From Candidatus Neomarinimicrobiota bacterium (lineage in GTDB: Bacteria > Fidelibacterota > SORT01), in the NCBI GenBank assembly GCA_022573815.1, contig JACZTG010000003.1, positions 62,001 through 126,000 on the forward strand: DNA of 64,000 nt. Reading direction: 5' to 3'. Below are positions 26,998 through 29,449 of this stretch, one piece after another. The notes beneath the pieces are model-generated. The model saw only the letters and a program-made list of their open reading frames with translations, had not been told where the DNA came from and did not search any database. Every line of letters begins with the position of its first letter. The first letter of the stretch is position 1. The position numbers and the translations under genes are program-made.

Positions 26998-28152
26998 ATG
27001 AAAATAAGAAGATATATTATTTTCGGAGTGTTGTTATCGGCAACCTCATTGTTCGCTCAGCAACCGGAATTGCGTGATATTCGGTATAGCAGCTATGAAG
27101 AATATACGCGTATAGTTTTTGAATTTTCCGGAGAGGTTCAGCCTCTTATCAACGACTTTTCTTCCGATAAAAAGACGGTGGAACTGATATTCAGCGCAAT
27201 CAAAATGTCGGCTTCAGTGAAAAATATCAGCATAAATGACGGAATAGTCGGTCGGGTAATAGCAGATCCAAAAGAGGAAGGCGTAAAGTTTATTATAGAA
27301 ATTGCCATCGCAAGTTCGATTCTTCGCAAAAGCTATTATGATGAACCCGATAGGGTTGTTATTGATATATATAAATCGGATGAACGTCAGTTGAGTGGCG
27401 CGGAAAAGCTTCTTAACGAAGCTAAAGAATATTTTGACAGGAAAGAATATGATGAGGCTGTTGCTAAAATCAGACAATCTCTCAGACTTCGCCCCGGATA
27501 CACGGACGCATATTATTATGCGGGTATAATTCGGAAGGAAAGAAAACAATACGATATGGCGAAGTTTAATTTTAGCAGAGCGCTTGCGGAAGAAGGGAAA
27601 TGGGGGGAATCTCATCTTCATCTTTCAGAAATATTGCTGTTGGAAGCGGATACGACCGCTGCAATTGATGAGCTTGCTCGTTATATAGCAGTCGGCAGAG
27701 TGGAGCAGAAAGTTATTCAAGCCGAAAAGCTGTTAACAACTTTAACAGGCTTACCAAGTATTGAATCGCCCGTTGAACTACCGACTACAACTAATATTGA
27801 TGATGAAGAAATTCCGGCGGAAGGGAAATTGGTTTACTATATTATCGGGGTTCTTGTAGTTATCATTTCTGCTCTTTCCTGGTATGTGTTTAAAAATCGT
27901 TCTGATTCTGAAGCTTCCTATTCAATTGAAAATAAAAAATCGGAACCAAGCCCGGCGATAAAAACCAAAGATATTGATTTACCTGTGGACAAAGAAGTTG
28001 AAAGCGGCGGTGATCGCTGGCTTAAAACGGATAAAGACACTATAGCTGAAGTAGATCGTCTTATGGACAAGTTTGGAGAGTTGGAAGAAGGAGAAAAAAA
28101 GCTGGATAGTAAAATCTCTAATGTGATGAAGAATATAAACAATAAAGAATGA
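26998..28152 (+). CDS. AMIN-domain and TPR membrane protein of unknown function
   Basis: A 384-residue protein in ordered parts: signal peptide or anchor (residues 1-20, ending SLFAQ), an AMIN-like beta domain (~25-127, strands with YTRIVFEFSG and DRVVIDIYK), TPR-like helices (~133-230, SGAEKLLNEAKEYFDRKEYDEAVAKI then repeat units), a Pro/Thr linker, one transmembrane helix (~278-298) and a charged cytoplasmic tail with likely coiled coil (~340-384). AMIN domains are periplasmic and often bind cell-wall glycans or sit in envelope machines. The predicted topology puts AMIN and TPR outside and the tail inside. Its end overlaps the start of the next gene by four bases. Function unknown. Confidence 0.8.
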   Translation: MKIRRYIIFGVLLSATSLFAQQPELRDIRYSSYEEYTRIVFEFSGEVQPLINDFSSDKKTVELIFSAIKMSASVKNISINDGIVGRVIADPKEEGVKFIIEIAIASSILRKSYYDEPDRVVIDIYKSDERQLSGAEKLLNEAKEYFDRKEYDEAVAKIRQSLRLRPGYTDAYYYAGIIRKERKQYDMAKFNFSRALAEEGKWGESHLHLSEILLLEADTTAAIDELARYIAVGRVEQKVIQAEKLLTTLTGLPSIESPVELPTTTNIDDEEIPAEGKLVYYIIGVLVVIISALSWYVFKNRSDSEASYSIENKKSEPSPAIKTKDIDLPVDKEVESGGDRWLKTDKDTIAEVDRLMDKFGELEEGEKKLDSKISNVMKNINNKE

Positions 28153-28472
28153 TGCAAAATCTATCAGACGAAGAAAGAAAAGATATTGATGAACTCGTAA
28201 GTAGTCTCAAGCCTGTCAACGTTGAAGAAGAGCAGGCAACAATTATGCCGATAGACGGGTCCAACGGGAGCACATCTTCCAATGTTGTCGAAACGGATAA
28301 GAACGAAGATAATGTTGATGATTTCGAAAAAGAGACTGAAGTTACTACAGCTGATTTATTGAAGGTCGTTTCACTCCAAAATGATCGTCTTGGACTCTTA
28401 AATAAGAAAGTTGATGTATTGACTCGCCTGGTAGAGTTGATTCTCAGGGCTAACTTAGAGGATGTGGAATAG
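28149..28472 (+). CDS. Small acidic coiled-coil protein, unknown function
   Basis: A 107-residue protein I do not recognise. It has an N-terminal helix rich in Asp/Glu/Lys (SDEERKDIDELVSSLK), a low-complexity acidic linker (about 25-65, many Asp, Glu, Ser, Asn) and a C-terminal leucine-rich amphipathic helix (about 68-103, DLLKVVSLQNDRLGLLNKKV onward) likely to form a coiled coil. No membrane segment. It overlaps the preceding membrane-protein gene by four bases and the following ATPase gene by one, so the three are almost certainly made together; a linker or adaptor role is inference. Confidence 0.72.
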   Translation: MMQNLSDEERKDIDELVSSLKPVNVEEEQATIMPIDGSNGSTSSNVVETDKNEDNVDDFEKETEVTTADLLKVVSLQNDRLGLLNKKVDVLTRLVELILRANLEDVE

Positions 28473-29449
28473 TGGCTCGATCTGAAATATGGGCAATTGG
28501 CGGCGGAAAAGGTGGAGTCGGCAAAACAATGCTTGCGGCAAATATTGCTGTCGGATTGGCTAAATTCGGCAAAAGCGTCATAGTAGTTGATACTGATCTC
28601 GGGGGAGCGAATCTACATTCCTATCTCGGCATTGGAGCTCCTGAAATGACAATCTACGATTTCTTTTTAAGGAGGGTATCAACGCTTGACGAACTTTTGA
28701 TAGATACCGCTGTTAAAGGATTAAAAATTCTGCCGGGAAGTAATGAAATTGTCGGAATGGCCAACCCGAGGTATTTCACAAAACTTAAATTCATGCGACA
28801 TATTCAGCAGCTTGATGCGGATTACATCCTCTTAGATGTGGGAGCAGGAACCGCATATAACACACTTGACCTTTTCGGAATGGCGAATATGGGCATAATT
28901 GTCACTATTCCGGAAAAACCGGCAATCGAATCTGCTTATGGATTTATTAAGGCGTCAATTTACAGAAAGCTGTTAACCACATTTCAGAAGCGGGTTAAAT
29001 TGCACGATCTTATCGACCAAGCGCGGAATCCCAGAAACGAAGCGGGAATCCGAACGGTTCACGACCTGATTAGGGTAGCAAAAGAAACAGATCCTGAGTT
29101 TGAGAGAGAAATTAAATCAGCGCTAAAATCTATTGACTTGAGAATAATAATTAACTTTGTTCAAAACAAACATGAATCCTTGATAGGCAAAAAAATGGTG
29201 GATTTAACTAAAAAATATCTGTCCATTGACGCTGAATATGTCGGCTCAGTCCCGTTCAGCAACAAGGTAAGGGAGTCGCTGGCAAATCAAACGACGCTTA
29301 TGATGGAAGATGGTGAGGATGAAGCCTCAGCAGCTCTGGTATATGCGACCCGTCTGCTGATAGCGAGCAACTCAGGTTCAGAAAACGTCAGCGAGGCACC
29401 TAAAGAAAATAATGTTGCTATGACTTCTGTTGAGTCAGAAGAAGATTAA
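28472..29449 (+). CDS. MinD/ParA-family ATPase (FlhG-like)
   Basis: A 325-residue deviant-Walker ATPase. GGGKGGVGKT (residues 10-19) carries the signature lysine of the MinD/ParA/FlhG group; DTDLGGANLHSYLG (near 40-53) is the switch I/Walker A' region, YILLDVGAG (near 118) the Walker B region. Unlike MinD it lacks an obvious C-terminal amphipathic membrane helix and ends in an acidic tail. It is not next to a parB, minC/E, flagellar or capsule gene. Start GTG at 28472 shares a base with the preceding stop. Such ATPases position complexes in the cell; the partner here is probably the adjacent membrane protein (inference). Confidence 0.88.
   Translation: MARSEIWAIGGGKGGVGKTMLAANIAVGLAKFGKSVIVVDTDLGGANLHSYLGIGAPEMTIYDFFLRRVSTLDELLIDTAVKGLKILPGSNEIVGMANPRYFTKLKFMRHIQQLDADYILLDVGAGTAYNTLDLFGMANMGIIVTIPEKPAIESAYGFIKASIYRKLLTTFQKRVKLHDLIDQARNPRNEAGIRTVHDLIRVAKETDPEFEREIKSALKSIDLRIIINFVQNKHESLIGKKMVDLTKKYLSIDAEYVGSVPFSNKVRESLANQTTLMMEDGEDEASAALVYATRLLIASNSGSENVSEAPKENNVAMTSVESEED

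Follow-up and report, generated by a model that had tools for sequence, protein, structure and literature searches.

How a position in the cell envelope is translated into the placement of a cytoplasmic machine is understood for few systems, namely HubP/FimV, Min and PomXYZ. The landmark HubP/FimV spans the membrane once, joining a periplasmic domain that binds the wall to a cytoplasmic part, and acts with the P-loop NTPase pair FlhF/FlhG and a further partner, FipA (PMC11236974; PMC12918733). ATPases of the ParA/MinD type were each found to serve a single cargo and to bind a partner of their own (PMC10241942). In the pilus machinery, PilQ binds peptidoglycan through its AMIN domains, and these are required if the machine is to be placed at the pole (PMC5285504).

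Here we describe a trio of overlapping genes at positions 26998-29449 of a 64,000-nucleotide stretch of DNA (the window) from a Neomarinimicrobiota (Fidelibacterota) genome, relatives of which are represented by JACZYG010000005.1 and SORT01000017.1. The genes, like all features located below, lie on the plus strand. They encode a 384 amino acid AMIN/TPR one-pass membrane protein that we propose as an envelope landmark (26998..28152; ORF, Pfam, model, profile and fold evidence), a 107 amino acid acidic protein proposed as an adaptor (28149..28472), a remote homologue of which occupies the same place in operons of the Desulfobacteria, and a 325 amino acid ATPase of the MinD/FlhG fold that belongs to an insert-bearing subfamily (28472..29449; Pfam, alignment, model and fold evidence). 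The ORF coordinates confirm the overlaps of 4 bp and 1 bp reported in a first-pass annotation of the sequence, the ATPase ORF starting at a GTG within TAGTG. That annotation also called the trio a closed unit. The overlaps stand, but dxs ends only 23 nt upstream, so that the trio may be transcribed together with it. Synteny with the relatives moreover covers the entire neighbourhood: within the family, gene order is kept well beyond the trio, from a dcd-like gene and moaA through the ccm genes (names by inspection), and adjacency inside the family is thus weak evidence by itself.

The first protein begins with a signal peptide (residues about 1-20, MKIRRYIIFGVLLSATSLFAQ; 26998..27057) recognised by inspection, with a model helix at residues 3-18. 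Next come an AMIN-like beta domain (residues 24-126; 27067..27375), assigned from the model, Foldseek and an AmiC profile, and a TPR region (residues 129-250; 27382..27747), seen as helices in the model and as a Pfam TPR_2 match of 27.2 bits, just above the cut-off of 27. A single membrane helix follows (residues 274-299; 27817..27894), apparent both as a hydropathy window from residue 272 and as a model helix, and the protein ends in a cytoplasmic helix (residues 340-382; 28015..28143) defined by the family alignment and a low-confidence model helix, with the motif RWLKTDKxxIAEVDRLMDKFGELE conserved in the window's family. The AMIN assignment is below the Pfam cut-off in the protein itself; the family profile matches the AMIN region of AmiC (E 5e-4), and Foldseek finds AmiC (4bin) and PilQ (4av2/4aqz) among the best PDB matches to the AMIN model, with probability 1.00. 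As the model of the whole protein is weak (pLDDT 56), the fold assignment rests on the AMIN part, for which eight strands are predicted with pLDDT mostly 70-85, and from this part of the model we take an AMIN fold to be present. A further Foldseek match of the AMIN/TPR model, to chain 9hmf_K of the Campylobacter flagellar periplasmic scaffold, was discarded at 24.5 Å rmsd. The protein is 53-56% identical to three family relatives, and the layout first annotated (AMIN, TPR, one membrane helix, cytoplasmic tail) is borne out by the Pfam TPR match, fold, hydropathy and model.

This layout resembles that of HubP/FimV in combining a single membrane pass, a periplasmic wall-type domain and a cytoplasmic part. 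The wall-type domain is AMIN, however, rather than LysM, the TPR repeats are periplasmic rather than cytoplasmic, and the tail is short, whereas HubP/FimV has an acidic region of ~70-kDa. Scans of Pfam and NCBIfam detected neither a LysM nor a FimV domain in the protein, and the LysM-like periplasmic domain and C-terminal cytoplasmic FimV domain that together identify HubP/FimV are not what is found here. The reading that we judge best, and to which we would give about an even chance, is one by analogy, in which the trio would work as HubP does with FlhF/FlhG but around a non-homologous landmark.

The AMIN fold is shared with PilQ and AmiC, although the first protein has neither a secretin nor an amidase domain and has instead TPR repeats, a membrane helix and a cytoplasmic tail. 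That AmiC is a septal amidase, and the top fold match, would suit a role in division or wall remodelling, with the AMIN protein recruiting septal wall enzymes and the ATPase timing or placing this step; at the loci read in the two phyla, however, the trio has neither an amidase nor any FtsZ regulator or wall enzyme for a neighbour, and we consider such a role distinctly improbable.

The small protein was first described as acidic, and its pI of 4.18 agrees. It matches no family above any cut-off in Pfam and NCBIfam scans, the MinE and ParB families included, and it differs from the transmembrane FipA in having no membrane helix. Its N-terminal LSDEERKDIDELVSSL motif (28161..28208) aligns with LS[DE]xExxDLexMI of small proteins from the Desulfobacteria, and its C-terminal helix-like segment, with an LNKKVD motif (28353..28469), aligns with their LNQRIDxI, such that an N-terminal LS[DE]xExxD and a C-terminal LNxxxD are common to the small proteins of both groups. 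Aligned by hhalign alone, the two sets give a probability of only 41 and an E value of 3e-4. Against a profile built from 14 Desulfobacteria sequences, however, the four proteins from the Neomarinimicrobiota reach 14.6-20.7 bits; the best score among 10,000 shuffled sequences is 10.3 bits, and none of the unrelated ORFs at these loci scores higher than the four. On these profile comparisons, the small proteins of the two phyla are remotely homologous.

The trio recalls PomXYZ, McdAB and other adaptor-coupled systems, in which a ParA/MinD switch and a coupled partner serve one cargo (PMC10241942). MinD/MinE and ParA/ParB likewise pair an ATPase with a partner encoded next to it, but the small protein of the trio matches neither MinE nor ParB, and the trio includes an envelope protein with a wall domain. 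To our knowledge, the partners in PomXYZ, McdAB and similar systems are not homologous to those of the trio and these systems have no wall anchor.

The ATPase carries a deviant Walker A motif, GGGKGGVGKT (28499..28528), that includes the signature lysine K13 and whose glycines and lysines are invariant across 37 aligned relatives; throughout this set K13, K18, D40, D42 and D122 are likewise retained. With its KGGxGK[ST] sequence, signature lysine, switch I and II aspartates and fold, the protein belongs to the ParA/MinD superfamily. The model is good (pLDDT 87.6) and Foldseek identifies the fold as that of FleN/FlhG/MinD, the closest solved folds being FleN structures, some in complex with FleQ. 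The model contains no membrane helix, as the first-pass annotation had also noted, and no C-terminal membrane-targeting helix is evident by inspection. Nor is this MinD of the Min system: the NCBIfam MinD equivalog scores 68 bits against a cut-off of 212.9, and no Min genes adjoin the ATPase gene.

FlhG/FleN proteins share with the ATPase the fold, the deviant Walker A motif and the conserved D40, D42 and D122, but several features set them apart. Between R165 and N228 the trio ATPase subfamily has 63-64 residues where FlhG of the same phylum has 13-15, an insert of ~50 residues that is helical in the model; the segment that contains it (residues 166-227; 28967..29152), delimited by comparison with FlhG, is predicted with pLDDT >90 over most of its length. 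His49 is invariant in the subfamily, unlike in FlhG of the same phylum, and the position of S154 is Asn or Ser rather than the Asp of all six FlhG proteins. The N-terminal, FlhF-activating motif DQAxxLR is absent from 37 of 37 members and present in the FlhG of the same genome, although its absence alone is a weak criterion, since five further FlhG proteins of the Neomarinimicrobiota proved to lack it as well. The trio ATPase thus represents a distinct subfamily and is not FlhG. The genome also encodes FlhG, a ParA beside ParB and an Mrp-type protein (the latter two identified by inspection), making the trio ATPase the fourth member of the superfamily there. In a phylogenetic tree, the window ATPases form a long separate branch between the Desulfobacteria and the DnaJ-linked clades discussed below, with the root unsure and the outgroup branches long. 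A recent transfer from the Desulfobacteria was considered but is not supported by this tree, given the separate long branch.

The first-pass annotation had allowed that the ATPase might prove to be an established FlhG/CpsD relative. It is not the FlhG of this genome: the true flhG (L153:9132-9992) lies beside flhF on another contig, within a cluster of flagellar genes that also encodes FlhA, and its product starts MDQATSLR, whilst the trio ATPase is not encoded with flhF and has no flagellar link. That FlhG is among the nearest folds, and that the genome possesses a set of flagellar genes, among which a second TPR/membrane protein is encoded, could still suggest an FlhG-like system for placing flagella, but true FlhG and FlhF are separate from the trio and trio genes occur in genomes where FlhA was not detected. 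These comprise two family members, each 96% complete, that keep the trio (G001 and G002) and 7 of the 12 Desulfobacteria genomes with the small protein. On this distribution we reject a flagellar function, for which we see hardly any likelihood.

The second TPR/membrane protein just mentioned (L153:4228-5562, minus strand, contig C5) combines TPR repeats with a single membrane helix, a cytoplasmic tail and, as judged by eye, an AMIN-like stretch. Its gene lies in the flagellar cluster, downstream of both flhG and a fliA-like gene, and over 60 residues its TPR part shares 40% identity with the trio's first protein. In other flagellated Neomarinimicrobiota, roughly this position behind flhG/fliA is occupied by genes for exported or membrane proteins (L172:3475-4845, L171:8531-9295, L173:3442-4287 and L175:3545-4531); the first of these proteins ends in a DUF2802/DUF6115-like HTH region.

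Within the sampled phylum, the ATPase is confined to the window's GTDB family, where it is found in four of five genomes, the fifth being 66% complete. All four genomes encode the small and AMIN proteins along with it. No full-length relative was detected in the 194 other Neomarinimicrobiota genomes, one of which gave a partial match limited to residues 6-165 (E 1e-26). Further afield, the single ATPase sequence matched nothing when used to query genome contigs, but a four-row alignment recovered 80 loci from Nitrospirota, Nitrospinota, Bdellovibrionota, Desulfobacterota, SAR324, Aminicenantes and others, nearly all with 35-44% identity over most of the protein.

At 50 of the 66 loci with a readable neighbourhood, a gene encoding DnaJ and HTH_25 (RodZ-like) domains is found directly downstream of the ATPase gene, a pairing seen at position +1 in Nitrospirota, Bdellovibrionota and others (L012-L088). 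We found no paper on a ParA-DnaJ-RodZ pairing in the open-licence literature. These HTH-bearing neighbours, the FleN folds solved with FleQ and the cNMP/PilZ protein added in the Desulfobacteria (see below) would fit a FleN-like ATPase that is held at the membrane and controls a transcription factor or signalling enzyme. We regard this as unlikely, however: the trio itself includes no transcription regulator, and an AMIN anchor suggests spatial input.

The closest match in gene order comes from the Desulfobacteria, where genes for an AMIN-membrane protein, a small protein of ~105 amino acids, a cNMP-PilZ protein and the ATPase follow one another on one strand with tight spacing. Several loci (L080, L115 and L122) even have the same 4-bp overlap between the AMIN and small genes as the window. 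The window trio lacks the cNMP-PilZ gene and otherwise presents homologous AMIN-membrane, small and ATPase genes in the same order. For the AMIN parts, hhalign gives a probability of 97 and an E value of 2e-10, from which these regions of the two phyla's proteins are homologous. A resemblance between the cytoplasmic tails was also seen by eye but was dropped, as shuffled tails scored equally well or better.

The small protein is present in 12 of 147 Desulfobacteria genomes and adjoins the ATPase on one contig in nine of these. In the remaining three, a contig end divides the operon (G347) or cuts it off after the start of the cNMP/PilZ gene (G337), or the operon is represented by AMIN and small genes with no neighbouring PilZ or ATPase gene (G346; L116:4746-6073), possibly a broken-up operon. 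The ATPase is found in 49 of the 147 genomes, and the ten best-scoring matches all come from genomes with the small protein. At three loci from Delta-type genomes (L072:5442-6910, L078:7480-8948 and L136), a PilZ-like protein is encoded directly before the ATPase and neither an AMIN nor a small gene was found beside it.

Because the three-gene set recurs in a second, distant phylum, the trio is probably a genuine functional unit. The first-pass annotation had looked to FCB genomes at large for such recurrence. Conservation within the family is clear, but within the sampled genomes of its own phylum the trio is limited to that one family, and wide occurrence in FCB genomes is not supported, the best match in gene order lying in the Desulfobacteria. 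The open-licence literature yielded no paper on a pairing of AMIN and MinD-like proteins, and the trio is probably a real, conserved unit that, as far as that search shows, is undescribed.

Following the operon at five Desulfobacteria loci (L058, L069, L117, L119 and L121) are genes for a roadblock (MglB-like) protein and an MglA-like GTPase. The window's own genome yielded no MglA-like gene in a search run without a positive control. Some of the five loci additionally encode, after the operon, a protein of ~200 amino acids with no Pfam match.

In Myxococcus, MglA is tied to pili (PMC7519303). Together with the PilZ neighbours and the link between the AMIN fold and PilQ (PMC5285504), the MglA-like genes bring into view a pilus-specific role, in which the trio would place type IVa pili, or switch them on, at the poles or at sites of division, its AMIN domain marking the wall as that of PilQ does. 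None of the five family genomes lacks the gene for the retraction ATPase PilT, nor does any of the 12 Desulfobacteria genomes that encode the small protein, but PilT is also encoded in 105 of 199 genomes of the phylum and is nearly universal in Desulfobacteria (144 of 147), so its co-occurrence is uninformative and was dropped as evidence. As neither the window region nor any of the relatives read has a pilus gene next to the trio, this more specific role strikes us as possible though doubtful.

The broader reading that we prefer, and would back about as readily as not, is that the trio forms an envelope-anchored positioning or regulatory system of the ParA/MinD type. In such a system the first protein would be exported, and its AMIN domain would bind the cell wall, probably at septal or polar peptidoglycan, whilst its periplasmic TPR repeats may gather partners. 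Crossing the membrane once, it would present its helical tail to the cytoplasm, where the small acidic protein would bridge the tail and the ATPase. The latter is predicted, from its conserved signature lysine and switch residues, to dimerise on ATP, and would be recruited or switched at the marked site, there to place or license a cargo. Our likeliest guess as to the cargo, held loosely, would be type IV pili at the poles or some other polar machine. Against this reading stand the low overall confidence of the AMIN/TPR model, the modest hhalign probability for the small proteins, and the tail expected to meet the adaptor, for which no homology between the two phyla was detectable. The first-pass annotation proposed that a ParA-like switch reads an envelope position by way of an adaptor, which is plausible, and the trio may be a new spatial-organisation system.

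More tentatively, the trio could exemplify an unnamed class of wall-anchored positioning systems, spread over at least two phyla, that combine a landmark of the AMIN type with a small adaptor of their own and a MinD-type ATPase that carries the insert, and have a cargo that would be neither the flagellum, the chromosome nor the Min divisome; in the Desulfobacteria, these systems would be tuned by cyclic-nucleotide/c-di-GMP and MglA-type inputs. The ATPase subfamily, for which we found no described function in the open-licence literature, is common in the Desulfobacteria and present in Nitrospirota and Bdellovibrionota. If the proposal is true, a wall domain, an adaptor and a switch encoded in one overlapping operon would constitute a minimal and testable link from envelope to cytoplasm.
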